NCBI RefSeq assembly: GCF_004134905.2
Contig: NZ_SDPQ02000002.1
Location: forward strand, 558,001-622,000
From: Aeromicrobium ginsengisoli
GTDB taxonomy: Bacteria > Actinomycetota > Actinomycetes > Propionibacteriales > Nocardioidaceae
Direction: 5' to 3'
DNA: 64,000 nucleotides
Shown here: one piece after another, positions 45,357 to 61,318 of the stretch
How the letters are laid out: each line of letters opens with the position of its first letter
Position numbering within the stretch: the stretch's first letter is position 1
Translations under genes and position numbers: made by a program
Notes under the pieces: model-generated
Seen by the model: only the letters and a program-made list of their open reading frames with translations
What the model was told of the DNA's origin: nothing
The model's database searches: none

Positions 45357-45369
45357 CTGATCAACTCGC
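45357..45369. repeat. Possible island boundary repeat, right copy
   Basis: CTGATCAACTCGC at the stop codon of the metallo-hydrolase gene; see the left copy at 32892-32904 (12/13 identical). Confidence 0.3.
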
Positions 45370-46395
45370 GGAATAGATGGCGACCGGCGTCGCGGTCGCG
45401 GCGAGGCGGCCGTCTTCGACCATGACGTCGAGGTGGGCGAGGGTCTCGCAGACCGCCATCATCTGGTTGAAGGGGTCGAGCTCGGTGAAGTGGCGCTCCC
45501 GGCGGGTCCAGAGCAGGCGATCGGCGACGTCGGCGGCGGTGCCGCTGCCGAGCGTACGGACGACGCGTTCGGCCTGTTCGAAGCGCTCGGCGTGGTGGGC
45601 GAGCAGCTCCCCGACGCGGTCGTGGACGCTGTCGGCGGGATAGCCGTGCGCCGGCATGAGCCGGGCGTCCGGTCGGGTCAGCAGCATGCGGAGCGACGTG
45701 AGGTAGTGCTGCAGCGGCAGCTCGCGGGCGCCGAGCTCGAAGCCGATCGAGGGAGTGATCGTCGGGAGCACGTGGTCGCCGGTGAACAGCAGTCTGTTGA
45801 CGTGGTCGTGGAAGACGAGGTGGCCCTTGGTGTGCCCGGGCGTCGGCACGACCTCGAGCTCGCGAGGGCCGAGGTCGAGCGTCTCGGCGTCGAGCCACGA
45901 GTCGGGCAGCTCCCAGCCGTCGTGGTCGAACGGCTCGGCTGCGGTGGCGTCGATCATGTCGGAGGCGAGGGCCGGAGCGCCGGCGCGCTCGAGGTCGCGG
46001 ATCGAGCCCACCGGGACATTCGTCCGTATGGCCATGACCTCGTGCAGGCCGGGCTGCTCGTGCCGGCCGAGGTGTACGCGTGCCCCGAACAGTCGGCGCA
46101 GCTCGACCGCGAACGTGTAGTGGTCGCGGTGGATGTGGGTGACGTAGACATCGTGGATGTCGGCGGGGGAGTGCCGGATCCCGGCGAGCGCGACGGTGAG
46201 CTCACGCAGCGCCGAGGGAACGCGCCAGCCGCCGTCGATCAGGGCGAGCCCGCGGGCCGTCTCGATGGCATAGACGTTGATCGCCCGCAGCCCGTCGTTG
46301 GGCATCGACAGGGGGATGCGGTGCACGCCGGGCGCGACCTCGTAGCAGCCTGGATCGGTCCAGGCCGAGGTCGGCACACCCGAGGTCGTGGTCAC
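45361..46395 (-). CDS. MBL-fold metallo-hydrolase
   Basis: A 344-residue metallo-beta-lactamase-fold hydrolase. The metal motif is THIHRDHYTF, with further ligands in PTPGHTKGH and FTGDHVLP. The GTG at 46395 overlaps the EthD-gene stop (GTGA); the longer frame is a shadow. A C-terminal winged-helix-like part follows. It is the last gene of the right-hand catabolic operon; it could be a thioesterase or lactonase. Confidence 0.85.
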   Translation of the reverse strand: MTTTSGVPTSAWTDPGCYEVAPGVHRIPLSMPNDGLRAINVYAIETARGLALIDGGWRVPSALRELTVALAGIRHSPADIHDVYVTHIHRDHYTFAVELRRLFGARVHLGRHEQPGLHEVMAIRTNVPVGSIRDLERAGAPALASDMIDATAAEPFDHDGWELPDSWLDAETLDLGPRELEVVPTPGHTKGHLVFHDHVNRLLFTGDHVLPTITPSIGFELGARELPLQHYLTSLRMLLTRPDARLMPAHGYPADSVHDRVGELLAHHAERFEQAERVVRTLGSGTAADVADRLLWTRRERHFTELDPFNQMMAVCETLAHLDVMVEDGRLAATATPVAIYSAS

Positions 46396-46715
46396 TCGTC
46401 GGCCACCATGACCTTCTCCTCGCCCATGACGGCGATCCGGCGGCCGCGCATGTCGCCGACGTTGGCGACGGCGTCGAGCCACGCCTGGCTGGCGAGTGCG
46501 GCCTCCATGGCCTCCTTGGAGTCGAAGCTGAGGACCGACAGGCCGTCCCAGCCCTCCGACTTCTCGCCCATGGCCTCGAGGATCTCGGTGTGGTGCCAGC
46601 GCCGCAGGCCCGGCAGGGCGTACGTCGGATCGGCGTGGTCGTTGCGCCACCACTGGATGAACTGGTCGTGCGTCCAGTCCCGCGGGCGGGCGGCGAGGAC
46701 GATGAGGTTGTACAT
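46392..46715 (-). CDS. EthD-domain protein
   Basis: A 107-residue dimeric alpha-beta barrel protein of the EthD type: MYNLIVLAARPRDWTHDQFI, then WWRNDHADPTYALPGLRRWH and the end GEEKVMVADE. AAGGAG precedes the ATG at 46715. EthD proteins accompany ring- or ether-degrading pathways; the role is unclear. It lies between the acyl-CoA ligase and the metallo-hydrolase. Confidence 0.82.
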   Translation of the reverse strand: MYNLIVLAARPRDWTHDQFIQWWRNDHADPTYALPGLRRWHHTEILEAMGEKSEGWDGLSVLSFDSKEAMEAALASQAWLDAVANVGDMRGRRIAVMGEEKVMVADE

Positions 46716-46738: not shown

Positions 46739-48235
46739 TCAGCCGGGCGTACGGCTCAGGTCGGTGGCGAGCCGCACGGCGTCGTCGCGCGACAGCTTGC
46801 CGACACGGTTCTGCGGCAGGGCGGCGACGCGATGGACGAACTCGGGCCACTTGAACTTGGCGAACCCGGCGGCGTCGAGATGCGCGGTGACGGTGTCGAG
46901 GTCGAGCTCGGTGCCCGTCGTGACGATGAGAGCGGCGGCACGTTCGCCGAGCAGCTCGTCGGGCACCGGCACGACACACACCTGGGCGACGTCGGGCATC
47001 TGCGCGATCGCAGCCTCGACCTCGTTGATGTCGATGTTGCGGCCGCCGCGGATGATGATCTGCTTCTCGCGGCCGACGATGTTGAGCGTGCCGTCGGGGT
47101 TGATCCGGGCCAGGTCGCCGGTCGGGAAGAACCCGTCGGCGGTGACCGCGGGTGGCTCCGGCGCGCCGTTGCGGGCATAGCCGACGAAGAACGACGGGCC
47201 CTGGACCTGCAGCTGGCCGACCTCGCCGGCGCCGCGGGGGACTCCGTCCTCGCCGACCACCCGCACCGTGGTGCCGGGGAAGGGCCGGCCGTCGCGCCCG
47301 AGGCGCACGTCCTCGCTCTCGCCCGGCAGGGGAGTCGTGTGGCCGAGGCACTCCGACATGCCGAAGACGCGCAGGAACTTCGTGCCGAGCGTACGTTCGG
47401 CGCGTCCCAGCGCTCCGGAGTCCATGGGGCCGCCGCCGACCGTCATGGCGGTCAACGACGAGAGACTGCCCTCGGAGTCGGGCTGGATCGACAGCTGCAA
47501 CGCCATGGTCGGCACGAGCATCGTCCACCGCACGTCGTGCTCGGCGAGGACGCGCAGCGCCGCCGAGGGCTCCCAGCCGTCGAGCGTGACCATGGGTGAG
47601 CCGAGCATCGCGGGCAGATACATGCCGAAGCAGAATGCGGCGACAGACGACAGGGGCACGAGCGCGCCGACCGGGTCGCCGGGCTGCAGGCCGACGGCGT
47701 CGATGGTGCACGTGCCGGCATAACGCAGCGCCTCCTCGGACTGCACGACGCACTTGGGCCGGCCGGTCGAGCCTGAGGTCATGGCGACGACGACACCGCC
47801 ACGCCAACGCTCGACGTCACTGGTTGCGCCGGGGCGGGCAGCGACGGTCCAGCCGCCGAGCGCCTCGTCGCGAGCGGAGAAGTGGTCGGCGGGCACGTCC
47901 CAGCCGATGATGACGGGTTCGGAGGCGATGACGACGTCGGGCACGAGGTCGCTGCACGCGATCGCGAACTCACCCGGCGTCGCGTGTCGGCTGACGACGG
48001 CGATCAGGCCGCCCCGCATGCCGACGGCGAGCGCCGCGGAGAGCGTGCGCCACGTGTTGTCGGCCTGCACGAGCACCGTCGGCGCCCCGTCGACGATCGT
48101 GGCGAGGACGCCGGCGAGCTCCTCGGCCTGGCGCAGGACCTCGGCAGTCGTGTGCGGGCCGGACGCGTCGATGACGGCGACCGATTCGGGCGTCGTCGCG
48201 GCACGTGCTGAGAACTCCGCTACCAGCTGTTGCAT
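46739..48235 (-). CDS. Acyl-CoA synthetase (class I adenylate-forming enzyme)
   Basis: A 498-residue ligase. The P-loop-like motif MTSGSTGRPKCVVQS, the A5 motif FGMSECLGHT, A7 region FFPTGDLARI, A8 REKQIIIRGGRNI and the A10 lysine in NRVGKLSRDD are all present. It activates a carboxylic acid to the CoA thioester and should start the beta-oxidation-like route encoded upstream. The ATG at 48235 follows AGGTAGGTCC. Confidence 0.87.
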   Translation of the reverse strand: MQQLVAEFSARAATTPESVAVIDASGPHTTAEVLRQAEELAGVLATIVDGAPTVLVQADNTWRTLSAALAVGMRGGLIAVVSRHATPGEFAIACSDLVPDVVIASEPVIIGWDVPADHFSARDEALGGWTVAARPGATSDVERWRGGVVVAMTSGSTGRPKCVVQSEEALRYAGTCTIDAVGLQPGDPVGALVPLSSVAAFCFGMYLPAMLGSPMVTLDGWEPSAALRVLAEHDVRWTMLVPTMALQLSIQPDSEGSLSSLTAMTVGGGPMDSGALGRAERTLGTKFLRVFGMSECLGHTTPLPGESEDVRLGRDGRPFPGTTVRVVGEDGVPRGAGEVGQLQVQGPSFFVGYARNGAPEPPAVTADGFFPTGDLARINPDGTLNIVGREKQIIIRGGRNIDINEVEAAIAQMPDVAQVCVVPVPDELLGERAAALIVTTGTELDLDTVTAHLDAAGFAKFKWPEFVHRVAALPQNRVGKLSRDDAVRLATDLSRTPG

Positions 48236-48301
48236 GGACCTACCTCTTCCGTGCCGGGGCCTGGAGCCCGGCGTGATCAGGACTGAATCGTGCGCTCGAA
48301 G

Positions 48302-49069
48302 TCATCGCGCCGTCCACCCTCCGTCGACGACGAGGGTCTGGCCGGTCACGTACGAGGATGCGTCGGAGCTCAGGAACAGCAGGGCGCCGTCGGCCTCACC
48401 CTCGTTGCCGCCGCGGCCGAGCATCGTGTTGCGCCGGACCCAGCCGGCGGACGCGTCGTTGGTGAACAGACCGTCGGTCATCTCGGTGTCGAACCAGCCG
48501 GGGACGACGGTGTTGACGCGTATGCCGCGGCGTCCCCACTGGCCGGCGAGCTCACGGCTGAGCCCGATGACGCCGGACTTCGAGGCGGCATAGCCGGCAC
48601 CGCCGATCGGCGCGGTCGACACCATCCCGACGACCGACGAGACGTTGATGATCGACGCCTGCCGGTCACCCTCGACGGTCTGCGCTACGGCGACGGCGAG
48701 GTGGAACCCGGCCGACAGGTTGAGGTCGAGCAGGGCGGCGAAGTCGGCGGGGGACTCGGTCTCGGCCTCCGGCGGTCCAGCCCGCCCGGCGTTGTTGACC
48801 AGCACGTCGACCCTGCCGTGGTCGGCCACGACCCGGTCGACGAGGAGCTGGCGGTCCGCGGCGTCGGTGATGTCGCATCGTATCGGGACGATGCCGTCGT
48901 GCTCCTTGGCCAGGATCTCGAGCCGGTCGAGGCGGCGGGCGGCGGCATAGACCGTCGCGCCGGCACCCGCGAGCGTACGGGCGAATCCGAGGCCGAGGCC
49001 CGACGAGGCGCCCGTCACAATGGCGGTGCGCCCCGAGAGGTCGAACAGCGACAAGGGTGATGTGGTCAC
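48302..49069 (-). CDS. Short-chain dehydrogenase/reductase
   Basis: A 255-residue SDR: VTGASSGLGLGFARTLAGAG, NNAGRAG, catalytic YAASKSG, VNTVVPGWFDTEM and the C-terminal VVDGGWTAR. The GTG at 49069 has GAGGAG five bases upstream. It probably oxidises a hydroxyacyl intermediate together with the next SDR. Spacing in the operon is 11 bp. Confidence 0.87.
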   Translation of the reverse strand: MTTSPLSLFDLSGRTAIVTGASSGLGLGFARTLAGAGATVYAAARRLDRLEILAKEHDGIVPIRCDITDAADRQLLVDRVVADHGRVDVLVNNAGRAGPPEAETESPADFAALLDLNLSAGFHLAVAVAQTVEGDRQASIINVSSVVGMVSTAPIGGAGYAASKSGVIGLSRELAGQWGRRGIRVNTVVPGWFDTEMTDGLFTNDASAGWVRRNTMLGRGGNEGEADGALLFLSSDASSYVTGQTLVVDGGWTAR

Positions 49070-49080
49070 GAAGGCTCCTC

Positions 49081-49836
49081 TCAGTAGACGGCCGTACGAC
49101 CGCCGTCGACGGCGATCACCGACCCCGTCGTGTAGCCGGATCGCGGACCCGCGAGGTGGACGACCATGCCGACGATCTCGTCGGGCTGGCCGAGGCGGCC
49201 GGCGGGCAGCCCGTCGACCACGAGGCTGATGAACTCGTCGTCCCAGTCCGCAGCCATGTCGGTCTCGAACGCCCCGGGCATGACGCAGTTGACGCGCACG
49301 GTCGGCGCGTACTCCTGGGCGTACGCCATGGTCAGCGCGTTGAGGCCGATCTTGGAGGCGGAGTACATCGCCTCGGCGGGGCTCGGCCGGATCGCGCCGA
49401 TGCTCGAGATGTTGACGATCGACCCGCCACCTGCCGCGGCCATACGGGCGCCTGCGACGGCCATGAGCCGGAACGGGCCCTTGAGGTTGACCTCGATCGT
49501 CTTGTCGAACAGGCCCTCCGGCACCTCGAGCAACGACGGTTTGAGCGGTGCGATGCCGGCATTGTTGACGACGATGTCGAGCCGGCCGTGCTGCGCGATG
49601 ATCGCGTCGACGGCGGGCTCGATCGCGTCCCACTGGCCGACGTGGAGGGGGAGTGGCGTCACGATGCTGCCGGTCTCCTCGGCGAGCGCTGCCGCGGTCT
49701 CCTCGCACGCCTCGGCCTTGCGGCTCGACACGACGACGGTGGCGCCCTCGAGCGCGAGGCCTCGGGCGATCGCGCGGCCGAGTCCGCGGGTCGCGCCGGT
49801 GACGAGGGCGACCTTGCCGTCGAGCTCGCCGGTCAC
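49081..49836 (-). CDS. Short-chain dehydrogenase/reductase
   Basis: A 251-residue SDR: VTGATRGLGRAIARGLALEG, NNAGIAP, catalytic YSASKIG, VNCVMPGAFETDM and VIAVDGGRTAVY. The GTG overlaps the acyl-CoA dehydrogenase stop (GTGA). With the kinase and ACAD10/11-type dehydrogenase it resembles the gene set of 4-hydroxyacyl-CoA catabolism, where an SDR processes the rearranged hydroxyacid (inference). Confidence 0.86.
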   Translation of the reverse strand: MTGELDGKVALVTGATRGLGRAIARGLALEGATVVVSSRKAEACEETAAALAEETGSIVTPLPLHVGQWDAIEPAVDAIIAQHGRLDIVVNNAGIAPLKPSLLEVPEGLFDKTIEVNLKGPFRLMAVAGARMAAAGGGSIVNISSIGAIRPSPAEAMYSASKIGLNALTMAYAQEYAPTVRVNCVMPGAFETDMAADWDDEFISLVVDGLPAGRLGQPDEIVGMVVHLAGPRSGYTTGSVIAVDGGRTAVY

Positions 49837-51041
49837 GAGGTCGCCTGCTTCTTGAGCTCGAGCCGGGCGATCGTCCGCAGGTGCACCTCGGTCGGGCCGT
49901 CGGCGATCTGCAGCGCGCGGGTGATCGCGAAGAGCCGGGCGAGGACCGTGTCGTCGCTGACCCCGGCTGCCCCGTACGTCTGCACGGCGCGGTTGACGAC
50001 GGTGTGCGCGGTCTCCATCGCGGCGACCTTGATCGCGGCGACCTCGGACCGCGCGGCGGCGTTGCCGGCGGTGTCCATGAGCCACGACGCCTTGAGCGTC
50101 AGCAGGCGGATCTGGTCGATCTCCATGCGACTGCGGGCGATCCACTCACGTACGACGCCTCGGTCAGCGAGCGGTCCGCCGAACGCCTCGCGGGCGACCG
50201 CCCGTTGGCACATGAGCTGCAGCGCGCGCTCGGCGAACCCGATCGCCCGCATCGCGTAGTGCATGCGGCCGGGCCCGAGCCGGCCCTGCGCGATGGCGAA
50301 GCCGCCGCCCTCCTCGCCGAGGATGTTGGTGACCGGCACGCGGACGTCGGTGAACTGCACCTCACCGTGGCCGAGCCGGTCGCGGTAGCCGAACATCGGC
50401 AGGTCGCGGAGGATCTCGATGCCGGGGGTGTCGAGCGGCACGAGCACCATGCTCTGCTGACGGTACGACGGTGCGTCGACGTCGGACTTGCCCATGAAGA
50501 TCACGAGCTTGCAGTCGGGGTCGAGGACGCCCGAGGCGTACCACTTGCGGCCGTTGAGGACGTACTCGTTGCCGTCACGGCGGATCGTCGAGGTGATGTT
50601 GGTGGCGTCGGAGCTCGCGACGTCGGGCTCGGTCATCGCGAACGCCGAGCGGATCTGGCACTCCAGCAGCGGCTTGAGCCACTCGTCCTTCTGCGCGTCG
50701 GTGCCGTACATCGCGAGGATCTCCATGTTGCCGGTGTCCGGCGCGGAGCAGTTGATGGCCTCGTTGCCGATGATCGACCGGCCGACGAGCTCGGCCAGCG
50801 GGGCGTACTCGAGGTTCGTCAGTCCGGCGCCGAGGTCGTCGTGGGTCATGAAGAGGTTCCAGAGGCCCTGCTCGCGGGCGATGGCCTGCAGGTCGCGCAT
50901 GACCTGCGGCTGCTCGTGCGGGTTGTCGTTGGCCTCGACCTGCGAGTCGTAGACCGCCTCGGCGGGGTAGACGTGCTCGGTCATGAACGTCTCGAGCCGC
51001 TCGAGCAGCGCCGTGGTGCGGGGTGAGTAGTCGAAGTCCAC
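49833..51041 (-). CDS. Acyl-CoA dehydrogenase, ACAD10/11 type
   Basis: A 402-residue acyl-CoA dehydrogenase. FAD/substrate motifs FAMTEPDVASSDATN, GRKWYASGVLDP, RAIGFAERALQLMCQRA, EAFGGPL and VQTYGAAGVSDD are visible. The pattern SDATNITSTIRRDG is typical of the ACAD10/11 branch. It is followed on the same strand by an SDR and preceded by an APH-type kinase gene; in eukaryotic ACAD10/11 these two activities are fused. Confidence 0.88.
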   Translation of the reverse strand: MDFDYSPRTTALLERLETFMTEHVYPAEAVYDSQVEANDNPHEQPQVMRDLQAIAREQGLWNLFMTHDDLGAGLTNLEYAPLAELVGRSIIGNEAINCSAPDTGNMEILAMYGTDAQKDEWLKPLLECQIRSAFAMTEPDVASSDATNITSTIRRDGNEYVLNGRKWYASGVLDPDCKLVIFMGKSDVDAPSYRQQSMVLVPLDTPGIEILRDLPMFGYRDRLGHGEVQFTDVRVPVTNILGEEGGGFAIAQGRLGPGRMHYAMRAIGFAERALQLMCQRAVAREAFGGPLADRGVVREWIARSRMEIDQIRLLTLKASWLMDTAGNAAARSEVAAIKVAAMETAHTVVNRAVQTYGAAGVSDDTVLARLFAITRALQIADGPTEVHLRTIARLELKKQATS

Positions 51042-51068
51042 GAGGAACCCTCTCTGGTGTCCGGGCGC

Positions 51069-52022
51069 TCAGCCGAGCCGGTCGCGGCCGGTACGGATGA
51101 GCGTGATGATGGTGTCGGGGAGACGTTCCTGGTCGGGGTCGACGTGGCGGCCCTCGCGGTGGCGGCGCAGGTTGTGGCCCATGATCGCGGCCATCTTGAA
51201 GCGGCCCAGCGCGTTGAACCACGCGAGATCATCGAGCGGTCGGCCGTACAGCTCGACCAGCTCTTCCTCGCTCGGCAGCCCGGGGACCTCACGGCCGACG
51301 CCGGGGAAGTTGGTGCCGTCGGCGAACACCAGGAACCAGCCGAGCTCGACGCGCGGGTCGCCGGTGCTCCAGATCTCCCAGTCGATGACGGCGGCCGGGT
51401 CGAGCCCGGTCGAGATGATGTTGCCGAGGCGGTAGTCGCCGTGCACCAGAGTCGGCGCGACGGCTTCGGGGACCGACGCGGCGAGCCGAGCCTCGAGGTC
51501 GGCCGCGCCGGGTACGAGCTCGGGCGGCACGGCGGCCATCGTGCGCGACCACCGCTGCAGCTCGTCTTCGGGGCTCAGTGCGGGACCGTCGACGGGGATC
51601 TTGTCGAGCGGTACGTCGTGCAGCGCCGGCAGGATCTCGGCCGCCCGTCGCATCCGCGCTGCTGCGAGGCCGGGTTCGACCTCGGGGTCGTCGAGCACGG
51701 GCTCCAGCGACTCGCCGGTGACGAACTCCATGGCGAACCACGCCGTCTCGGTCTCGTCGACCACGATGATCTCGGGCACCGGTACGTCCGTCGGTGCGAG
51801 CGCCTGCATGATGCGCGCCTGGCGCACCATGTCGTGCCGGCCGACGGGGCGCTGGCCCTCCGGCACGGCCTTGACGACGACCGGGCCGTTCGACGTGGGG
51901 ACGCGATAGGTCAGCCCGGAGTGACCGCCGAGCAGCGGCTCGAGCGCCTGCACCTCGAGGCCGGGGTCGACCCGCTGGAGGGCGGCGGCGACGCGAGCGC
52001 CGAGGGTCTCTTCGAACGTCAT
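51069..52022 (-). CDS. APH-type phosphotransferase (ACAD10-like kinase)
   Basis: A 317-residue aminoglycoside-phosphotransferase-fold kinase. The catalytic loop is VHGDYRLGNII and the metal-binding motif is VIDWEIWSTGDP. VVVKAVP holds the ATP lysine. The ATG overlaps the upstream dehydrogenase stop. The adjacent ACAD10/11-type dehydrogenase suggests phosphorylation of a hydroxyacyl-CoA and not of an antibiotic (family knowledge for ACAD10/11 and LvaA). Confidence 0.85.
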   Translation of the reverse strand: MTFEETLGARVAAALQRVDPGLEVQALEPLLGGHSGLTYRVPTSNGPVVVKAVPEGQRPVGRHDMVRQARIMQALAPTDVPVPEIIVVDETETAWFAMEFVTGESLEPVLDDPEVEPGLAAARMRRAAEILPALHDVPLDKIPVDGPALSPEDELQRWSRTMAAVPPELVPGAADLEARLAASVPEAVAPTLVHGDYRLGNIISTGLDPAAVIDWEIWSTGDPRVELGWFLVFADGTNFPGVGREVPGLPSEEELVELYGRPLDDLAWFNALGRFKMAAIMGHNLRRHREGRHVDPDQERLPDTIITLIRTGRDRLG

Positions 52023-53215
52023 GGGCGCGGCTCCCGCGGCAGGCCGAGCACGCGCTCGGCGAGGATGTTGTGCTGGATCTCGTCGGTGCCACCCGCGATG
52101 CGATAGCCCGGGGCGCCGAGGACGTGCTCGGTCCACGCCCACGTGCCCCACTCGCCGGACTCGACCGTGAGATCGCTGCCGAGCAGCATCCGCACGACTT
52201 CAGACGTACGCGCCATGGTGTTGGTGGCGAGCAGCTTGCCGACCGACGCCTCGGGCCCGGGTGCCTCGCCGGCGACGACCGCAGCGGCGACGCGCATGCC
52301 GGTGAGCCGCTGGACATAGCTGCGAGTGATGAGGTCGGCGACCGTGTCACGCTCGATCTCCGACAACGGTCCGCGGTGCCGGGCGAGCTCGACGGCACGG
52401 TCGGCGTTGTCGAGGCCGAGGTTGCCGGAGTCGAGGCGTTCGGCGGCGAGCACCGTCAGCGCGACCTGCCAGCCCGCGCCGACCGGGCCGAGCCGCATGG
52501 AGTCATCGAGGACCACGCCGTCGAGGTAGACCTCGTTGAAGCTGCTACCGCCGGTCATCTGCCGGATGGGCCGCACCTCGACGCCGGGGGTGTCCATCGG
52601 CACGAGGAACACCGTCAGGCCGGCGTGCTTGGCGGCGGTCGAGTCCGTGCGGCACACGGCGATGCCCAGATCGGCGATCCGCGCGCCGGAGGTCCACACC
52701 TTGTGCCCGTCGAGGACCCACGAGCCGTCGCGCTGCACGGCCTTCGTACGTACGGCGGCGAGGTCCGATCCCGCCTCGGTCTCGGAGAACAGCTGACAGG
52801 CGATGAGGTCGGTGCGCAGCATCGCGCGTACGTAGGTCGCCTTCTGCTCGTCGGTGCCCCACTGCGCGATGGTCGGCGCCACGAGCTGTTGCGTCACGGA
52901 GAACATCTCGGTGCGGCGCGGCACGTCGAACGTCGCCTCCTCGCGCTGGAACGCCAGCGCGTGGGCGAGCGGGAGCTCGCGGCCGCCGTACTCGGCGGGC
53001 CAGGTCAGGGCGGCGCCCCAACCGGCGTCGAACTTGGCCTGTTCGTAGACCCGGATCCGGTCGGTCTCGGCGCGCTCCTCGGCGGCGGTCCAGTTCTCGA
53101 AGACCGCGACGGTGTCGTCGCCGTCGCCCCAGGCGGTCGCCTGGCGAGGCGGCGCCTGCTGGGCGAGCCAGGCGCGGGCCTCGGCGATGAACGTTGCGGT
53201 GTCGGGTGTGGGCAC
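52019..53215 (-). CDS. Acyl-CoA dehydrogenase
   Basis: A 398-residue acyl-CoA dehydrogenase: LTWPAEYGGRELPLAHALAF, CQLFSETEAGSDLAAVRT, GHKVWTSGARIADLGI and the C-terminal YRIAGGTDEIQHNILAERVL. This FadE-type end suits the larger subunit of heteromeric actinobacterial enzymes; the shorter dehydrogenase at 55640 could be its partner (inference). GTG start with GAGAGG upstream. It overlaps the kinase gene (ATGA). Confidence 0.88.
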   Translation of the reverse strand: MPTPDTATFIAEARAWLAQQAPPRQATAWGDGDDTVAVFENWTAAEERAETDRIRVYEQAKFDAGWGAALTWPAEYGGRELPLAHALAFQREEATFDVPRRTEMFSVTQQLVAPTIAQWGTDEQKATYVRAMLRTDLIACQLFSETEAGSDLAAVRTKAVQRDGSWVLDGHKVWTSGARIADLGIAVCRTDSTAAKHAGLTVFLVPMDTPGVEVRPIRQMTGGSSFNEVYLDGVVLDDSMRLGPVGAGWQVALTVLAAERLDSGNLGLDNADRAVELARHRGPLSEIERDTVADLITRSYVQRLTGMRVAAAVVAGEAPGPEASVGKLLATNTMARTSEVVRMLLGSDLTVESGEWGTWAWTEHVLGAPGYRIAGGTDEIQHNILAERVLGLPREPRP

Positions 53216-53226: not shown

Positions 53227-54375
53227 TCAGACGGCCAGGACGGTGCAGGCGCTGATGCCCGGTGCGCCGTAGACGTGGGTGAAGCCCAGATGCGGGCTGC
53301 CGGGCACCTGACGGTCGCCGGCCTCGCCGCGCAGCTGGGTGACGATCTCGTGCACCTGCCGCAGTCCGGACGCGCCGATCGGTTCACCGTTCGCGATGCA
53401 GCCGCCGTCGGTGTTGACCGGCATGCTGCCGTCGATCAGCGTCGCGCCCTTCTCCAGCAGCTGCTCCTGCTCGCCGTGCTCGCAGAACCCGCACTCGGCC
53501 ATGTGCATGATCTCCGCGCCGCTCTCGGTGTCCTGCAGCTGCAGCACGTCGATCTCGTCGGGGCGTACGCCGGCGGCATCGAACGCCGCAGCGGCCGCCG
53601 TGGTGCTGACGCTGGTGGGTGCCCCGATGCCCTGGATGGCCGGCGCGAAGACCTCGAACGTGCCGAAGCCGCGCGTACGTGTGACAGCCGACAGCAGCGA
53701 CACGGGTCGTCCACCGAGCCGGGTCGCCACGGCCTCGCTGGCGACGATGATCGCCGCGCCGCCCTCGCCGGGGGAGCAGAACATGTAGCGCGTCAGCGGG
53801 TCGTTGACCATGTCCGCCGAGGCGATCTCCTCAGCCGACATCGGCGTGCGACGCCAGGCGTTGGGGTTGAGGGTGCCGTTGGCGTACGCCTTCTCGGCGA
53901 CCTTGGCGAGCGTCTGCGCGGTGATGCCGTACTCGCGCATGTAGCGGGCGATCTTGATGCCGAAGAACTGCGTCGTCACCATCAGCCCGGCCTCGCCGTA
54001 GCCCGCCGGGAGGCCCCATTCCTCGGGCAACGGGGCGAACGCACCGCGGCCGTGCTTGTCGAACCCGACCGCCAGGGCGATCTCGGCGGAGCCCGAACGG
54101 ATCGCGTTGACCGCCGACACGAGGGCGCTGCCGCCGGTCGCGCAGCCGTTCTTGACGTTGGTGAACGGGATGCCGGTGAGGCCCAGCTCGGCAACCAGCG
54201 TGTCGGCGAGGCCGGATCCGTCGCTGCCGCCGAAGGCGATCTGCACGTCCGACCACTCCAGGCCGGCATCGGCGAGCGCGGTGCGGATGGCCTGCACGGC
54301 CATCTCGCGTCCGCTGACCCCGGGCTGGCGGCCGAACGCCGACAGGCCGGCGCCGACGATAGACACCCCGGTCAT
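53227..54375 (-). CDS. Thiolase-superfamily (Ltp2/SCP-x-like) enzyme
   Basis: A 382-residue thiolase-fold protein. The nucleophile cysteine is C78 in KNGCATGGSALVSA. In the usual GHP position it reads ANGEPIGASGLRQ, so the catalytic His is replaced by Glu. The ATG at 54375 overlaps the stop of the DUF35 gene, and such pairs form Ltp2-type retro-aldolase or acyltransferase complexes (family knowledge). The substitution argues against ordinary Claisen thiolysis. Confidence 0.85.
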   Translation of the reverse strand: MTGVSIVGAGLSAFGRQPGVSGREMAVQAIRTALADAGLEWSDVQIAFGGSDGSGLADTLVAELGLTGIPFTNVKNGCATGGSALVSAVNAIRSGSAEIALAVGFDKHGRGAFAPLPEEWGLPAGYGEAGLMVTTQFFGIKIARYMREYGITAQTLAKVAEKAYANGTLNPNAWRRTPMSAEEIASADMVNDPLTRYMFCSPGEGGAAIIVASEAVATRLGGRPVSLLSAVTRTRGFGTFEVFAPAIQGIGAPTSVSTTAAAAAFDAAGVRPDEIDVLQLQDTESGAEIMHMAECGFCEHGEQEQLLEKGATLIDGSMPVNTDGGCIANGEPIGASGLRQVHEIVTQLRGEAGDRQVPGSPHLGFTHVYGAPGISACTVLAV

Positions 54376-54731
54376 GCCACGACCTCGAAACGGGGGACCG
54401 GCACGGTCGCGGTCAGGCGTACGGGCGCATGGCCCTCGAGCTCGGCGAAGTCGGCGCACTCGAGCACGGCCTCGACCTTGACGCCCTCGGACAGCTCGAC
54501 GTAACCGACGGCGAACGGCACGAAGCCGTCCGCCGGCGGCACGTACGGCGGGGACTTCGGTGCGAACCGCTGCACCGTGAAGCCCCACACCGTGCCGTGC
54601 TCCGACAGCTCGATGGGCTGCATGACCTGCTGGCCACACCGCTGACACCCGTCGGCGACCGGGAAGGCGACGTTGCCACAGCTGTCGCACCGGCTGCCGT
54701 GCAGGCGGGGCGCTGATTCGGTCGGGCTCAC
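54372..54731 (-). CDS. Zn-ribbon OB-fold (DUF35) protein
   Basis: A 119-residue DUF35 protein: zinc ribbon CDSCGNVAFPVADGCQRCG (two CxxC) and then an OB-fold with GFTVQRFAPKSPPYVPPADG, FAVGYVELSEGVKVEAVLE. It is coupled to the thiolase-like gene by ATGA overlap and should be its obligate partner subunit. GTG start with AAGGAG five bases upstream. Confidence 0.88.
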   Translation of the reverse strand: MSPTESAPRLHGSRCDSCGNVAFPVADGCQRCGQQVMQPIELSEHGTVWGFTVQRFAPKSPPYVPPADGFVPFAVGYVELSEGVKVEAVLECADFAELEGHAPVRLTATVPVPRFEVVA

Positions 54732-54772: not shown

Positions 54773-55561
54773 TCAGCGGCCGACCCACTTGGGCTCACGC
54801 TTCTCCAGGAACGCCTGGACGCCTTCCTTGGCGTCCTCGGACTGCAGCGCGTTGCCCACCGCGAGGTGCTCCATGACCATGAGCGACTGGATGTCGGCGT
54901 CGAGGCCGCGGTCGATCGTCATCTTGGTGAGCCTCATCATGAACGGGCTCTTGTCGGTCAGCTGCGCGGTGAAGTCGGCGACGGTCTTGTCGAGCTCGTC
55001 GGCCGGCGCCGAGGCGTTGATGAGGTCGAAGTCGACCGCTTCCTGGCCGGTCAGCAGCTTGCCGGTGAGCATCAGCTCCTTGGTCTTGCGGATGCCGATC
55101 ATGCGGGGGAGGCGGTAGATCGGTCCGGCGCCACCGAACAGGGCGCGGCGGATGTGGAAGTCGCCGATCAGGGCGTCGTCGCTCGCGATCGCGAAATCGC
55201 ACGAGATCATCAGCTCGAAGCCACCCGCGGTGACGTAGCCCTCGAGGACCGCGACGGACGGCGTGTTCATCGAGTAGAGGCGGTCACAGACCTTCGCCGA
55301 GATGACGGCGACCTCCATCGCGGTGGTCGTGCCGACGTAGTTGGCCAGCAGCTCGTCCAGGTCGAAGCCGGAGCAGAACGTGTTGCCGCGCCCGCGGAGC
55401 ACCAGCACCTTGAGCTCGGGGTCGTTGTCGACCTCCACGATGATCTCGTCGAGCCGGTGGAGCAGCTCGAGCGTGACGGCGTTCTTCTTGTGCGGACGGT
55501 TGAGCCACACGCGTGCGACCTCGCCATCCTTCTCGAGCACGATGTGGTCGGTGTCAATCAC
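54773..55561 (-). CDS. Enoyl-CoA hydratase/isomerase-family protein
   Basis: A 262-residue crotonase: RVWLNRPHKKNAVTLELLHR, oxyanion-hole segments GRGNTFCSGFDLDEL and GYVTAGGFELMISCDFAIAS, and DFHIRRALFGGAGPIYRLPR. The GTG at 55561 has AAAGGA six bases upstream; the TTG at 55576 is less likely. A consensus promoter and operator site D lie immediately upstream, so it heads the minus-strand operon running towards 53.2 kb or beyond. Confidence 0.87.
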   Translation of the reverse strand: MIDTDHIVLEKDGEVARVWLNRPHKKNAVTLELLHRLDEIIVEVDNDPELKVLVLRGRGNTFCSGFDLDELLANYVGTTTAMEVAVISAKVCDRLYSMNTPSVAVLEGYVTAGGFELMISCDFAIASDDALIGDFHIRRALFGGAGPIYRLPRMIGIRKTKELMLTGKLLTGQEAVDFDLINASAPADELDKTVADFTAQLTDKSPFMMRLTKMTIDRGLDADIQSLMVMEHLAVGNALQSEDAKEGVQAFLEKREPKWVGR

Positions 55562-55574
55562 GGCATGTCCTTTC

Positions 55575-55595
55575 AAAATGAACTGGATTCATTTC
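55575..55595. promoter_or_regulatory. Regulon operator, site D
   Basis: Core TGAACTGGATTCA at 55579-55591 inside the inverted repeat AAATGAA-CTGGA-TTCATTT. It lies at the predicted transcription start of the enoyl-CoA hydratase operon. Confidence 0.7.
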
Positions 55596-55639: not shown

Positions 55640-56731
55640 TCAGAGGCCGACGAGGTCGGCGATCGCGGCGCGATGCGCGCGTGAGCTGCCGAACAATCCC
55701 TCGTCGCCGAGGGCGCGGCGGACGTACAGGTGTGCGGTGTGCTCCCAGGTGAAACCGATGCCCCCGTGCAGCTGGACCGATTCGTGGGCCGCGCGGATCA
55801 CGACGTCCTGGCAGACCGCCGCGGCGATGCGGGCGGGCAAAGTGGCTGCCTCGGGGTCGGCGTCGAAGATCGCAGCGGCATAACGTGATGCCGATCGAGC
55901 CCGCTCGAGGTCGACGAGGAGGTCGGCGAGCCGGTGCTTGATCGCCTGGAACGAGGCGATCGCCCGGCCGAACTGCTGGCGTTCGAGCAGGTACGCCGTC
56001 GTGGTCTCGAGCAGGTGCGTCGCCATGCCGGTGTGCTCGGCCGCGACGCCGATCGCCCCAGCGGTCTGCACTGTATGCCAGACGTCGTCGAATCGTTCAG
56101 GGCCGACCAGCAGCCGAGCGGGGGCTTTCGCGATCGAGACGTCGGCCAGCGGGCGAGTGTCGTCGAGCACCTGTCGGGTGCGGGTGGTGACGGCGTCGTG
56201 CCGCAGGTCCACGACGAAGAGTGCCGTCCCGGCGTCAGTGGTGGCCGGCACGATCAGGTGCTGCGCGGTCTCCGCGTGCGGGATGCGCTCGGTCGTGCCG
56301 ACCAAGGTCCAGCCGTCGCCCGACGGCGTCGCGCGTACGTCATGAGGGCTCGCCCAGGTCACGGTGGCGACCTCGCGGCCCGACGAGATGGCCTCGAGGA
56401 GGTCGTCGGCCGGCTGGTCGGCGGCGATCACTGCCTGCACCGCGACGACCGCCGAGGTCAGGACCGGATCGGGCAGCAGTGCGGCGCCGGTCTCCTCCAG
56501 CACGACGCCGACCTCGCGCAGCCCGAAACCCGCGCCGCTGAGGGCTTCGGGGACGGCGAGCGAGCCGATCTCGAGCTCCGACATCAGCCGATCCCACGTG
56601 CCGTCAGCCTTGGCGACCACGGCGCGGACGATCTCGCGGAGGTCGTCGTGCTCGGGGACAGGAGTGAGGATCGATGGATCCGCGGCGGGGGCCGCGTCGA
56701 ACGTACGGGCAGCGGTTGACGTGGCTGGCAT
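55640..56731 (-). CDS. Acyl-CoA dehydrogenase (short form)
   Basis: A 363-residue acyl-CoA dehydrogenase: SLAVPEALSGAGFGLREVGV, ERQQFGRAIASFQAIKHRLA, ESVQLHGGIGFTWEHTAHLY and the end AIADLVGL. The shorter N-terminal part suits the small subunit of heteromeric FadE pairs. The ATG at 56731 has GAGG upstream; the frame opens at 56758 inside the operator. It appears to be a single-gene unit behind its own promoter and site E. Confidence 0.86.
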   Translation of the reverse strand: MPATSTAARTFDAAPAADPSILTPVPEHDDLREIVRAVVAKADGTWDRLMSELEIGSLAVPEALSGAGFGLREVGVVLEETGAALLPDPVLTSAVVAVQAVIAADQPADDLLEAISSGREVATVTWASPHDVRATPSGDGWTLVGTTERIPHAETAQHLIVPATTDAGTALFVVDLRHDAVTTRTRQVLDDTRPLADVSIAKAPARLLVGPERFDDVWHTVQTAGAIGVAAEHTGMATHLLETTTAYLLERQQFGRAIASFQAIKHRLADLLVDLERARSASRYAAAIFDADPEAATLPARIAAAVCQDVVIRAAHESVQLHGGIGFTWEHTAHLYVRRALGDEGLFGSSRAHRAAIADLVGL

Positions 56732-56756
56732 GAGGACCTCGATGGGGTGACGAAGC

Positions 56757-56777
56757 AAACTGAGACGAATTCAGTTT
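56757..56777. promoter_or_regulatory. Regulon operator, site E
   Basis: AAACTGA-gacgaat-TCAGTTT, perfect 7-bp arms. On the minus strand CTGGCA-N18-TAAACT (-10 at 56778-56773) forms a plausible promoter whose -10 box lies inside the operator. It ends 26 bp before the dehydrogenase start. Confidence 0.72.
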
Positions 56778-56825: not shown

Positions 56826-57473
56826 TCAGGCCCGGGCCGGAACCTCTGCGGAGTCGACGAGGCGCGCCGCGGCCTCGGCCATGACCTCAGTGATCTGCTC
56901 GAGCGTCATCTCACCGCCGGGTCGGTACCAGCGCCACACGCCGACGACCAGGGCCAGCAGCATGCGCGCCGACAGCAGCGCGTCGTCGACCCGGAACGTG
57001 CCGTCGTCGATGCCCTTCTGGACGAGCCCGGTCCAGTTGTGCTCGATCTCCTGGACGAGGGACCGGCAGAGGAGGCGCTCTTCCTCCTCCTTCTTCGAGG
57101 GCCGCTTGGTGGCGAGCAGGTCCATGTGGTTCTGCAGGATGCGGCGCTGCAGCGCGTCGCGGGGCGAGGCCTCGTACGCGCTCGCGACGGCGGCCGTCAG
57201 GGCGGCTGCGGGGTCATCGGCGGCGGACGTGGCGGCCTTGAACCGCTCGACGGAGTTGCTGAGCTCGAGCCGCATGATCGTGAGGAGGCAGTGCACCTTG
57301 GACTCGAAGTAGTGGTAGAGCGCGGTCTGGCCGATGCCGACGTCGTCGGCGATCGTGGCCCACTTGGTGTGCTCGAACCCCTCCTCGCCGAAGCGGTCGA
57401 TCGCGGTGGCGATGATCACCGCACGCTTGGAGCGCGGGCTCTCGGTGCGCGGTGCGTTGTCGACTGTGCTCAT
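56826..57473 (-). CDS. TetR-family regulator, candidate master of the catabolic regulon
   Basis: A 215-residue TetR protein with helix-turn-helix TKWATIADDVGIGQTALYHYF, then ESKVHCLLTIM. The ATG at 57473 gives the normal length; a TTG five codons upstream is possible. It lies amid the catabolic operons, divergent from the medium-chain oxidoreductase, with operator site F in the shared upstream region and site E beyond its 3' end. It is therefore the best local candidate for binding all seven sites, with an acyl-CoA or pathway acid as ligand (inference). Confidence 0.86.
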   Translation of the reverse strand: MSTVDNAPRTESPRSKRAVIIATAIDRFGEEGFEHTKWATIADDVGIGQTALYHYFESKVHCLLTIMRLELSNSVERFKAATSAADDPAAALTAAVASAYEASPRDALQRRILQNHMDLLATKRPSKKEEEERLLCRSLVQEIEHNWTGLVQKGIDDGTFRVDDALLSARMLLALVVGVWRWYRPGGEMTLEQITEVMAEAAARLVDSAEVPARA

Positions 57474-57592
57474 CGATGCGATTCCCAACTCTCGTGGCCG
57501 TCAGCGACCATGACCTGAACTCGGCTCATTCGTACAGTGCCACGGGTGAAAGCGTGTGGCAATTCTTAGCGACCTTTGTGGAGATGTGTCCC

Positions 57593-57649: not shown

Positions 57650-58690
57650 ATGAGCCTCAGTGGTCGGCAGGTCCAGGTCGTCGCCTATCCGCGCGGACCG
57701 GTCGAGGAGCGGCACTTCGAGGTCGTCGAGGTGCCGGTCGAGCCGGTCGGGCCGGGGCAGGTGCTCGTGCGCAACACGTGGACGTCGGTCGATCCCGGTC
57801 TGCGACTCCGGCTGCGCGAGGCGGCGCCGGAAGGCTACTTCGTGGCCTTCCCGTTGCACGCCGCCATGGACGGGATCATGACGATCGGCGAGGTCGTGGA
57901 GTCGCGTGCCGAAGGGTTCGCACCGGGTGACACGGTCTGGCACGCGCGGGGGTGGCGCGACTACGCCGTCGTCGACGCCTCCGCGGTGCAGCTCAGCGGC
58001 CTCGGCACGCTGCGGGTGCTCGACACGTCGATCGCCGAGCCGCAGTGGTATCTCGGGGTGCTCGGTGGCATGGGCCTCACGGCGTACGCCGGCCTGTCGG
58101 TCGTCGGCGCGCTGAAGGGTGGCGAGACGGTGTGGGTCTCGGCGGCAGCGGGAGCCGTCGGCAGCCTCGCCGTCCAGATCGCCAAGTTGCACGGCAACCG
58201 GGTCGTGGCCAGTGCCGGTTCGGACGACAAGGTTCGCTGGCTGCTGGACGATCTCGGCGTCGACGCAGCGTTCAGCTATCGCGCAGCACCCGTCGGCGAG
58301 GGCCTCGCCATCGCCGCGCCGGAAGGCATCGACGTCTACTTCGACTGTGTCGGCAGCGATCATCTCGAGGCCGCGCTCGACGCGATGAACCGCGACGGCC
58401 GGATCGCGATCTGCGGATCGGTGTCGGAGTACGAGTCGGAGCCCGCCGGTCCGCGCAACCTGTTCCTCGCCGTCGCCAAGGACCTGACGATCCGTGGGTT
58501 CCGCGGCAGCAGCAACCTCGACCTGCTCGACCAGATGCAGGCTGAGCTCGGGGCGGCACTCGCCGACGGTCGACTGCAGCAGCGCGAGACCGTCTTCGAC
58601 GGGCTCGCGAGTGCCCCGAAGGCGCTGATCGAGATGATCGCCGGCCGCACGACCGGCAAGACTCTCGTCCACCTCACCGACGTACGTTGA
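57650..58690 (+). CDS. Zinc-independent medium-chain NADP oxidoreductase
   Basis: A 346-residue MDR-superfamily reductase of the leukotriene-B4 12-hydroxydehydrogenase/CurA type. Signs are VRNTWTSVDPGLRLRLREA, GGMGLTAYAGLSVVGALKGG, the cofactor motif SAAAGAVGSLAVQIAKLHG and FDCVGSDHLEAALDAMN; there are no zinc ligands. It probably reduces an enone or enoyl double bond. It is followed after 13 bp by an SDR gene. The ribosome site is weak. Confidence 0.86.
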   Translation: MSLSGRQVQVVAYPRGPVEERHFEVVEVPVEPVGPGQVLVRNTWTSVDPGLRLRLREAAPEGYFVAFPLHAAMDGIMTIGEVVESRAEGFAPGDTVWHARGWRDYAVVDASAVQLSGLGTLRVLDTSIAEPQWYLGVLGGMGLTAYAGLSVVGALKGGETVWVSAAAGAVGSLAVQIAKLHGNRVVASAGSDDKVRWLLDDLGVDAAFSYRAAPVGEGLAIAAPEGIDVYFDCVGSDHLEAALDAMNRDGRIAICGSVSEYESEPAGPRNLFLAVAKDLTIRGFRGSSNLDLLDQMQAELGAALADGRLQQRETVFDGLASAPKALIEMIAGRTTGKTLVHLTDVR

Positions 58691-58703: not shown

Positions 58704-59471
58704 ATGACCACGATGAGCTCCAGGATCGACGGCAAGGTCGTGCTGCTGACCGGCGCGACGGGCGGGCTCGGGGCTGCGACGGCACGCCGTATCGCCGACG
58801 AAGGCGGGCACCTCGTCCTGACCGATCTCGACGTCGCAGCCTGCGAAGCGCTGGCGCAGAGCCTCGCCGACACCCCCGGCCGGCACACGGCGCTGGCCCT
58901 CGACGTGTCGGTCGAGGGCCAGTGGCGGGCGGCCGCGGGCTTCGTGGAGGGCGAGTACGGCAGGCTCGACGCACTCGTCAACAACGCGGCGATCGGGAGC
59001 ATCGCGACGGTGGAGGACGAGGACGTCGAGCACTGGGACCGGGTCATGGCCATCGGGGTCAACGGCGTGTGGCTCGGCATGAAGCACTGCGGCCCGCTGA
59101 TGGCTGCCGCCGGCAGCGGCTCGATCGTCAACGTGTCGTCGATCCTCGGCACGGTCGGCGGGTTCGGCAACAGCGCGGCCTATCACGCGGCCAAGGGCGC
59201 GGTGCGGACACTGACCAAGAACGCCGCGCTCCACTGGGCCACGTCGGGCGTACGGGTCAACTCCCTGCACCCGGGCTTCATCGGCACCGAGCAGCTGCTG
59301 GCGCGGCACGAGGGATCGGAGCGCCACGCGGCGATGCTCGCCGGTACGCCCATGGGCCGGCTCGGCCACGGTGACGAGATCGCGGCGGTCGTCGCGTTCC
59401 TGGTGAGCGACGACTCGACGTTCATGACCGGCTCCGAGGTCTATGCCGACGGCGGGTGGACGGCTGCTTAG
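58704..59471 (+). CDS. Short-chain dehydrogenase/reductase
   Basis: A 255-residue SDR: LLTGATGGLGAATARRIADEG, NNAAIGS, catalytic YHAAKGA, VNSLHPGFIGTEQL and ADGGWTAA. ATG at 58704 with AAGGG upstream; a second ATG three codons on is possible. The 3' end overlaps the convergent alcohol dehydrogenase gene by 4 bp. It is co-transcribed with the MDR reductase under site F. Confidence 0.87.
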   Translation: MTTMSSRIDGKVVLLTGATGGLGAATARRIADEGGHLVLTDLDVAACEALAQSLADTPGRHTALALDVSVEGQWRAAAGFVEGEYGRLDALVNNAAIGSIATVEDEDVEHWDRVMAIGVNGVWLGMKHCGPLMAAAGSGSIVNVSSILGTVGGFGNSAAYHAAKGAVRTLTKNAALHWATSGVRVNSLHPGFIGTEQLLARHEGSERHAAMLAGTPMGRLGHGDEIAAVVAFLVSDDSTFMTGSEVYADGGWTAA

Positions 59472-60505: not shown

Positions 60506-60546
60506 CGCGGGTCTCCGAACTGGGTCGAGGTCGCTCCCGAACGTAC

Positions 60547-60575
60547 TCGACATCGGCCAGAAACTGAACTAGGTT
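60547..60575 (+). promoter_or_regulatory. Promoter of the NTF2-like gene pair
   Basis: TCGACA at 60547-60552 and TAGGTT at 60570-60575 with a 17-bp spacer. Transcription start would fall near 60582, exactly the GTG start codon, so the message is probably leaderless. Confidence 0.5.
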
Positions 60576-60953: not shown

Positions 60954-61318
60954 GCGCGACGCCGTTCCTCGACGACTGGTTCACGTTCATGGACTCCGAA
61001 GAGCCCGAGCGCGTCCTCGACCTGATCACGGACGACTTCGAGATGTCGATCCAGTTCTCGACCGGCTCTGGGCAGGCCTCGGAATTCCTCGGTGACCGCG
61101 CGGGCCTCATCGCGTACCTCGAGCAGCGCGAGGTCAGTGTGCTGGTCCATCACCTCACCCACAGCGCCCGCGTCGACGACGTGGAGATCGCCCTGGGCAA
61201 GACAACGCGAGACGGCGTGTTCGAGGCCGCGTTCAACGTGTCCGCCGAGCTCGATCCTGCGGTCAACAAGGTTCGCCGGCTGCTGATCGCGCGTACGCCG
61301 GAGATCGAGTTCGCCTGA
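60950..61318 (+). CDS. NTF2/SnoaL-like protein
   Basis: A 122-residue NTF2-like protein: FLDDWFTFMDSEEPERVLDL, FEMSIQFSTGSGQASEFLGD and VRRLLIARTPEIEFA. GGAGGAA precedes the ATG at 60950, which overlaps the stop of the first NTF2-like gene. The function is unknown. Confidence 0.75.
   Translation: MSATPFLDDWFTFMDSEEPERVLDLITDDFEMSIQFSTGSGQASEFLGDRAGLIAYLEQREVSVLVHHLTHSARVDDVEIALGKTTRDGVFEAAFNVSAELDPAVNKVRRLLIARTPEIEFA

Follow-up and report, generated by a model that had tools for sequence, protein, structure and literature searches.

The removal of a hydroxyl group from an acyl-coenzyme A (acyl-CoA) by way of its phosphate ester is a recently elucidated reaction, which Pseudomonas applies to levulinate and mammals to 4-hydroxy acids. 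According to the available text of PMC11342911, phosphorylation is followed by oxidation, elimination of the phosphate and reduction to give a 2-enoyl-CoA, and in the lvaABCDE operon of Pseudomonas putida the kinase is LvaA and the acyl-CoA dehydrogenase (ACAD) is LvaC. In mouse ACAD11, as set out in the available text of PMC12440821, the 4-phosphate is held by R626, H634 and R637, D753 serves in catalysis and R631 is a residue common to ACADs at large; replacement of any one of the phosphate-binding trio, which LvaC shares, by Ala or Leu is among the most disruptive changes, and Arg176 contacts CoA in the ACAD11 model. The locus considered here lies in a 64,000-nucleotide stretch of the genome of Aeromicrobium ginsengisoli (contig NZ_SDPQ02000002.1, positions 558,001 to 622,000; the whole stretch is termed the window, and positions are counted within it), where an original prediction had placed an acyl-CoA ligase, two short-chain dehydrogenases/reductases (SDRs), an ACAD10/11-type dehydrogenase and an APH-type kinase in a single operon resembling those for 4-hydroxyacyl-CoA catabolism.

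All five genes are present on the minus strand within 46739-52022, as had been claimed, and their order recurs in other genera, so that their adjacency is not a matter of chance. We lean towards the view that the conserved cluster to which they belong would activate a carboxylic acid with CoA and remove an approximately gamma hydroxyl through the kinase and then the ACAD11-clade enzyme; phospho-dehydroxylation of a 4-hydroxyacyl-CoA-like compound is the best reading of the locus. By analogy, and with moderate confidence, the kinase and the dehydrogenase are taken to work like the ACAD10/11 and LvaA-LvaC couples.

The dehydrogenase and its kinase

The gene content of the cluster, its conservation, the clade of its ACAD and the residues that are kept or changed are all matters of observation. 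The best solved relatives of the dehydrogenase (49833..51041, minus strand) are ACAD11 (8v3u at 424.9 bits, 8v3v and 2wbi) and 4hr3 (405.3 bits), against 133.6 bits for the best ACAD outside the ACAD11 group. Ordinary ACADs served as outgroup for a tree of 64 rows, in which the 12 sampled operon rows form one clade (support 100, starred), nested within a clade (99, starred) that also holds ACAD11 and a group of enzymes at 50-65% identity. The alternative in which the operon ACADs join a far clade instead was rejected by the approximately unbiased (AU) test on a 34-row set (p-AU 0.035). On its sequence the enzyme thus belongs to the ACAD11 clade and not with the ordinary FadE enzymes, which is how the original prediction had expected its phylogeny to fall (LvaC was left out of the set).

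The equivalents of R626, R631, R637 and D753 are all kept in 74/74 operon rows, or 66/66 when each locus is counted once. The equivalent of His634 is Tyr in the same 74/74 rows (66/66), and it is retained as His in all 46 other readable rows (42/42 counting each locus once), mouse ACAD11 included; these comprise 17/17 rows at 50-65% identity and 28/28 readable rows below 40% (25 counting each locus once). One partial row of this alignment is unreadable, and LvaC is outside it. A single row among the 17 of the 50-65% identity group is without D753, and the four ordinary ACADs in the alignment lack R626, R637 and D753, together with His634 where that position can be read. The Tyr may reshape the phosphate pocket for a hydroxyl at another position or for a bulkier chain. 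A second ACAD11-clade dehydrogenase is encoded elsewhere in the same genome (G000 C3:399705-400916, locus L050); it is 57% identical and keeps His634, and no relative of the window kinase was found beside it at E 1e-8 within the 19 kb examined.

The kinase (51069..52022, minus strand; PF01636, 110.9 bits) has 3dxp, 9o56 and ACAD11 as its best relatives of solved structure by sequence. Equivalents of the catalytic and metal-binding Asp220, Asn225 and Asp238 are found in all 133 aligned kinases, which otherwise fall into two classes. The canonical class (33/133: mouse ACAD11 and 32 others, among them proteobacterial and Deinococcus plasmid kinases) has Arg in strand beta-3, Glu in helix alpha-C and Arg-Gln at 176-177. 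The K/Q class (100/133) has Gln in alpha-C and no Arg at 176, with Lys in beta-3 in 99 rows and Glu177 in 99; counting each locus once, the classes number 32 and 89. The window kinase is of the K/Q class, its beta-3 residue being Lys instead of Arg and its alpha-C residue Gln instead of Glu, and Arg176 being absent. A branch with starred support of 100 separates the 33 canonical rows, the ACAD11 kinase among them, from the K/Q class in a 59-row sample, so by sequence the kinase is not a member of the group to which the ACAD11 kinase belongs; alignment and trees were made without LvaA. Two of five same-genome candidates passed the profile search and served as outgroups, on end branches of 4.4 and 7.5, and in the resulting tree neither a grouping of the operon kinases with the canonical class (p-AU 0.26) nor one with the other K/Q kinases (0.098) was rejected. 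Two AU tests made without an outgroup (p 0.51 and 0.38) are uninformative because those trees are unrooted. The description of the pair as ACAD10/11-type therefore stands for the clade of the dehydrogenase; it does not stand for a canonical kinase, since the window kinase lies outside that group and lacks Arg176 and the alpha-C Glu, nor for His634, where Tyr is found.

The predicted structure of the kinase has a mean predicted local distance difference test score (pLDDT) of 92.2. Its best structural match is 3dxp (Z 27.8, root-mean-square deviation (rmsd) 2.7 over 298 residues), followed by Rv3168 (Z 24.9, rmsd 3.9, 301 residues) and a 25-hydroxysteroid kinase (Z 24.7, rmsd 4.0, 310 residues; entries 9ft5 and 9fsg at Z 24.7 and 23.8), then by homoserine kinase (Z 22.4) and, from Z 21.1 down, the antibiotic kinases. 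With Foldseek the same four entries lead and APH(3') comes next. The ACAD11 chains 8v3u and 8v3v are absent among the structural matches listed, from which we draw no inference. It would be quite implausible, on these results, to regard the locus as ordinary beta-oxidation genes beside an unrelated or antibiotic-type kinase. The APH fold is indeed common to antibiotic kinases, which match the model at up to Z 21.1, and there is a weak likeness to the APH(3') model of NCBIfam (37.3 bits); the cut-off of that model is 205 bits, however, and in the fold ranking the antibiotic kinases come after 3dxp, Rv3168 and the steroid kinase. Moreover, the kinase and the ACAD11-like gene remain neighbours across genera, and the tree shows the ACAD not to be of the ordinary type. 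An antibiotic-kinase identity was accordingly rejected on model score and fold ranking, though the fold is shared. Neither of the groupings that the original prediction had named as telling against it, the kinase with antibiotic phosphotransferases or the dehydrogenase with FadE, was found, since the dehydrogenase groups with ACAD11 and the kinase is nearer to 3dxp, Rv3168 and the steroid-alcohol kinase.

The steroid kinase matches raise another explanation, namely that the kinase phosphorylates an alcohol elsewhere in the molecule (for example a tertiary one carried by a ring or a side chain, whether the acid is already activated with CoA or not yet) and that the elimination is not at C4. The presence of 9ft5 and 9fsg among the best matches of the model and the loss of the CoA-contacting Arg176 in 100/100 K/Q rows are in its favour, but the top match is 3dxp and not the steroid kinase, and the partner ACAD keeps Arg631, the catalytic Asp and two phosphate-binding Arg, which fits a phosphate near C4. 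We consider this explanation improbable but not negligible.

The association of the two enzymes was followed by looking up to 6 kb from each kinase for the closest ACAD11-like gene and counting every locus a single time. Among 88 K/Q kinases the partner is operon-type (Tyr634) in 64 cases and far-clade (His634) in 18, and six have none; among 31 canonical kinases it belongs to the 50-65% group in 14, to the far clade in three and to the operon type in one, and 13 have none, many of these 13 sitting in stretches shorter than 5 kb. The operon thus couples a K/Q kinase with an ACAD11-clade ACAD, and other K/Q kinases adjoin far-clade ACADs. In Prauserella (L121) and Nocardia harenae (L125) the surroundings are operon-like and a far-clade ACAD stands in place of the operon type, which suggests that the ACAD was replaced during the history of the operon.

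The surrounding cluster and its distribution

The original prediction had the place of the cluster right but not its size. The whole cluster spans 45361-61318 and consists of a minus-strand run (45361-57488) and five further genes (57650-61318) that are homologues of genes flanking the same operon in other genomes. Upstream of the kinase are genes for a first additional ACAD (ACADa), a thiolase-like protein, a DUF35 protein, a crotonase, a second additional ACAD (ACADb) and a TetR-family regulator; downstream of the ligase are those for an EthD-family protein and a metallo-beta-lactamase-fold (MBL) protein. With the gene starts that we picked among the in-frame candidates, there are 4-base overlaps in four gene pairs (SDR 1/ACAD, kinase/ACADa, thiolase-like/DUF35 and EthD/MBL), as in a co-translated operon.

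A kinase of at least 70% identity occurs in 6 of the 149 genomes of the window's family (G000, G109, G071, G090, G144 and G072), one further genome has one at 47%, and looser relatives (E up to 1e-20) are found in 96. In a species-level genome collection 236 stretches encode a kinase relative, of which the best 79 distinct loci, down to 39% kinase identity, were retained. The closest kinase (97%) is that of Aeromicrobium sp. Root344, followed by relatives in Nocardioides, Rhodococcus, Kitasatospora, Dietzia, Nocardia, Williamsia, Gordonia and others. The cluster as such was found in Aeromicrobium, Nocardioides, Rhodococcus, Nocardia, Gordonia, Streptomyces and others; it is plasmid-borne in Rhodococcus qingshengii J1-2 and Rhodococcus sp. 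BH4, and a plasmid of Streptomyces sp. NBC_01450 carries most of it.

Gene content was counted over 65 loci with a kinase identity of at least 50% and a stretch of at least 14 kb, partner genes being scored at 40% identity, a threshold that may admit paralogues, above all among the SDRs; the flanks of some loci may be clipped. The thiolase-like protein and ACADa are present in all 65, the DUF35 protein and SDR 2 in 64, and the crotonase (ECH), SDR 1, the ligase, the EthD protein and the ACAD11-like dehydrogenase in 63, so that the last accompanies 63 of 65 loci chosen by way of the kinase. The MBL protein follows with 58, TetR and the alcohol dehydrogenase (ADH) with 57 each, SDR 3 and a protein without a family with 49 each, ACADb with 48, the SnoaL-like protein with 46 and an ABC permease with 42.

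Several of the partner enzymes are unusual. The best PDB matches of ACADa (52019..53215, minus strand) and ACADb (55640..56758, minus strand) are Tcur3483 (6wy9) and Tcur3481 (6wy8_A), which are chains of a single complex, and a match to one of the two chains of 4x28 is likewise found for each; the Tcur and 4x28 enzymes presumably act on steroid side chains. The catalytic Glu of ACADa is kept in 66/66 rows, and ACADa and ACADb probably form a two-subunit ACAD, to judge by these relationships. The thiolase-like protein (53227..54375, minus strand), with the SCP2-thiolases 6hsj and 6hrv as its best PDB matches, keeps the Cys; its HDCF region reads QDTE and its GHP reads GEP, and in 66/66 rows Gln replaces the His and Thr the Cys of HDCF, while Glu replaces the His of GHP. 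The DUF35-bound aldolases Ltp2 and Sal carry a YDHF/YDCY motif (available text of PMC12329534), and the protein is thus without both the His pair of the SCP2-type thiolases and the aldolase motif. A retro-aldolase identity was considered for it and is weakened by QDTE in place of YDHF/YDCY. The adjoining DUF35 gene (54372..54731, minus strand) encodes a ChsH2-type OB fold with a zinc ribbon (PF01796 OB_ChsH2_C, 48.6 of 27.1 bits; PF12172, 21.0 bits, under its cut-off of 23.2), in which the two scored Cys are kept in 65/65 rows. In the crotonase-family enzyme (54773..55576, minus strand; PF00378) the second catalytic Glu is replaced by His in 64/64 rows. Fixed changes at the active sites of several enzymes of the cluster point to one unusual pathway and not to generic beta-oxidation, and the two-subunit steroid-type ACAD and the rebuilt DUF35/thiolase-like pair speak less for levulinate than for a substrate that is bulky and perhaps alicyclic. 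The original prediction had suggested that the arrangement, with its DUF35/thiolase-like enzymes, might be a variant serving hydroxy acids that are longer or branched; this is compatible with these findings and is strengthened by them.

It is unlikely that the locus is simply a rearranged form of the levulinate and 4-hydroxyvalerate pathway encoded by lvaABCDE. The same types of enzyme are present (ligase, SDR, kinase and ACAD11-like), but the kinase lacks Arg176 and does not fall within the ACAD11 kinase's group (LvaA being outside that comparison), the dehydrogenase has Tyr634, and a C5 acid should need neither a two-subunit steroid-type ACAD nor a rebuilt DUF35/thiolase-like pair. There is no gene between the kinase and the ACAD, the gap being 27 bases, and DUF6285 (PF19802), the family to which we take LvaB to belong, has no match at E 0.001 across the whole genome, in agreement with the earlier remark that no LvaB-like small subunit is seen. 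Small proteins beside other kinase loci were considered as LvaB candidates, and none of the three has a Pfam match.

The remaining genes of the minus-strand run encode the acyl-CoA ligase (FadD-like, 46739..48235; PF00501 AMP-binding, 157.3 bits, and PF13193; none of the best 25 of 98 matched NCBIfam models reaches its cut-off), SDR 2 (48302..49069; PF13561, YxxxK in 65/65 rows), SDR 1 (49081..49836; PF13561, YxxxK in 64/64 rows), the small EthD-family protein (46392..46715; PF07110, TIGR02118 at 34.5 of 30.5 bits), the MBL-fold metallo-hydrolase (45361..46395; PF00753, 73.9 bits) and the TetR-family regulator (56826..57488; PF00440 and PF17932). Beyond the regulator are a medium-chain dehydrogenase/reductase resembling NADPH enone reductases (57650..58690, plus strand; CurA/prostaglandin-reductase-like, sub-threshold to the CurA model at 254.8 of 440 bits), a 94% relative of which adjoins the cluster in Aeromicrobium sp. 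Root344; SDR 3 (58704..59471, plus; 60% identity to SDR3 of the Rhodococcus BH4 cluster); the zinc ADH (59468..60553, minus; 53% identity to the BH4 enzyme), displaced here from its usual place between SDR 2 and the ligase; a SnoaL/NTF2-like protein (60582..60953, plus; PF12680, 28.0 of 27 bits; 48% identity to its BH4 counterpart); and a conserved protein (60959..61318, plus; 62% identity to a BH4 protein) with no Pfam match at E 0.001.

The MBL protein allows for the catabolism of gamma-lactones or longer 4-hydroxy fatty acids, in which it would open the lactone, the ligase would activate the acid, and the kinase and ACAD11-like enzyme would act as in mammals. Its HxHxDH residues are invariant in 59/59 aligned rows, and mammalian ACAD11 takes longer-chain 4-hydroxy acids (available text of PMC12440821). 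However, the only lactonase match of the protein in NCBIfam, AidB, is far below its cut-off (31.3 of 360 bits), the gene is absent from 7 of the 65 loci, and ACADa/b, the DUF35/thiolase-like pair, the ADH and the SnoaL-like protein are left unexplained. We regard this as a minor possibility.

Some neighbouring genes deserve mention. The two Rhodococcus plasmid loci (L052 and L063) have, bordering the cluster, genes for an OYE/FadH-like reductase, for a FAD_binding_2 flavoprotein that is sub-threshold to tricarballylate and ketosteroid dehydrogenases, and for an ABC transporter together with solute-binding proteins. At the left end of L042 (G071, on the same contig as Nocardioides pocheonensis L127), a second and different pair of kinase and ACAD11-like genes (32% and 34% identity) adjoins the cluster, together with an open reading frame judged MaoC-like by eye. 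Within the window, 23905-32895 encodes an aldehyde dehydrogenase, a GMC oxidoreductase, a sugar-type ABC transporter, an alpha/beta hydrolase and an SDR with 56% identity to SDR4 of the BH4 cluster; this segment is possibly an uptake and early-oxidation module of the same pathway. At 33007-35449 on the minus strand is a Pycsar-type anti-phage locus, in a stretch of lower G+C near tRNA-Gly (37875-37948), with one PycTM effector between two cyclases that have different best PycC models (307.9 and 297.8 bits). The protein encoded by the adjacent 35779-36669 has a sub-threshold DUF4062 match, and about 140 of its residues match PDC-S60, a candidate defence model.

Proposed pathway and candidate substrates

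In the pathway that we favour, the ligase would make the CoA thioester of the acid, and an SDR or the ADH would supply the hydroxyl gamma to the thioester from a ketone. The kinase would phosphorylate this hydroxyl with ATP, after which the Asp of the ACAD11-clade enzyme would take the alpha proton, the acyl-CoA being transiently oxidised and FAD reduced; the same enzyme would then expel the phosphate and hand the electrons back to give the 2-enoyl-CoA. An SDR would oxidise the 3-hydroxy product, and ACADa/b, the crotonase and the DUF35/thiolase-like pair would process the bulky or ring-bearing remainder. The sequential action of the two enzymes, the order of the steps, the 4-position of the hydroxyl and a ring substrate are the parts of this scheme that we infer. 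The altered kinase/ACAD pair suggests a substrate other than that of the mammalian and Pseudomonas systems, most likely, from the partner enzymes, an alicyclic or otherwise bulky acid.

A number of results weigh against this pathway. The invariant Tyr at the position of His634 may weaken the phosphate pocket, and without Arg176 and the alpha-C Glu the recognition of a CoA thioester by the kinase is unsupported by its residues. The kinase tree could not be rooted, and in the 34-row set the grouping of the operon ACADs with ACAD11 has a support of 93, unstarred. Since the 65 loci were picked by way of the kinase, the co-occurrence counts are biased upwards; nor are they independent, as many loci are close kin, including two near-identical Rhodococcus plasmids. 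The thiolase-like protein is neither a thiolase nor a known aldolase, which makes the ring and side-chain part of the scheme weak, and nothing in the present results fixes the hydroxyl at C4.

A more specific version, in which a new K/Q kinase class and a Tyr634 ACAD11-like lyase dehydroxylate a ring-derived acyl-CoA, possibly of plant origin, in an undescribed pathway, is put forward tentatively, as something that may well prove wrong; its new-enzyme-class half is the likelier. More specific still, and very unlikely as well as purely inferential, is a jasmonate-type cyclopentaneacetic acid as the substrate. The acid would be activated; ACADa/b would then desaturate its acetyl arm, and cleavage by the DUF35/thiolase-like pair, after hydration, would give a cyclopentane-1,3-dione; the dione would be opened to a 4-oxo acid and reduced to a 4-hydroxyacyl-CoA, which the kinase and ACAD11-like enzyme would pass into beta-oxidation. 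The absent aldolase motif speaks against the cleavage step.

Among the matches listed, no paper on a bacterial jasmonate operon was found by title or abstract, and none on LvaA, LvaC, 4-hydroxyacyl-CoA or ACAD11 in actinobacteria dealt with this system (subscription papers and preprints fall outside this search); a search for the phosphotransferase family with EthD in Rhodococcus and other genera gave no paper on this cluster by title or abstract. The quorum-quenching qsd operon of Rhodococcus, which serves gamma-lactone catabolism, is not this cluster: QsdA, QsdC and QsdR are described, and a phosphotransferase is unmentioned in the main text of PMC6262395. No link to abscisic acid catabolism could be made, because the available text of PMC12509608 and PMC12349427 does not name catabolic genes. 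This is a real conserved cluster for which no description was found, and we do not claim that it is absent from print.

Comparison with known systems

If the proposed pathway is correct, the occurrence across many actinobacteria of another kinase class, together with a phosphate pocket altered in a fixed way, would widen the chemistry of phosphorylation-driven dehydroxylation, and would provide a natural test of the residues that govern the position of the phosphorylated hydroxyl and its bulk. It would also give a functional lead for genes annotated as 'phosphotransferase family protein', the relatives of which are easily mistaken for antibiotic kinases.

Mammalian ACAD10 and ACAD11 (available text of PMC12440821 and PMC11342911) resemble the cluster in the ACAD clade, the catalytic Asp, Arg626, Arg631 and Arg637, and the partnership of kinase and ACAD. 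The cluster differs in having separate polypeptides, Tyr for His634 and a large operon, and its kinase differs from the ACAD11 kinase domain in the beta-3 Lys, the alpha-C Gln and the absence of Arg176.

The likeness to lvaABCDE is one of enzyme type, with a CoA ligase, an SDR, a kinase and an LvaC-like ACAD together, and not of LvaA or LvaC sequence. The cluster differs in its TetR regulator, in having no LvaB-like gene that we could see, and in the additional two-subunit ACAD, DUF35/thiolase-like pair, crotonase, EthD, MBL, ADH and SnoaL-like proteins. Present evidence does not warrant classing the cluster as an lva operon.

The 25-hydroxysteroid kinase (9fsg and 9ft5) is, like the window kinase, an APH-fold protein, close to it by fold, that phosphorylates an alcohol, but its target is the sterol 25-hydroxyl according to the entry titles and the identity is about 20%. 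To the enzymes of steroid side-chain degradation the cluster is linked by its relatives of the two-subunit ACAD Tcur3481/Tcur3483 and by a thiolase-like gene beside a ChsH2-type DUF35 gene; unlike the Ltp2 and Sal-DUF35 aldolases (available text of PMC12329534), its thiolase-like protein has neither YDHF/YDCY nor the thiolase His. The kinase class, finally, is shared with the K/Q kinase and ACAD pairs of Mycobacterium and other genera, from which the cluster differs in that their ACAD is of the far clade (34-40% identity) and keeps His634.

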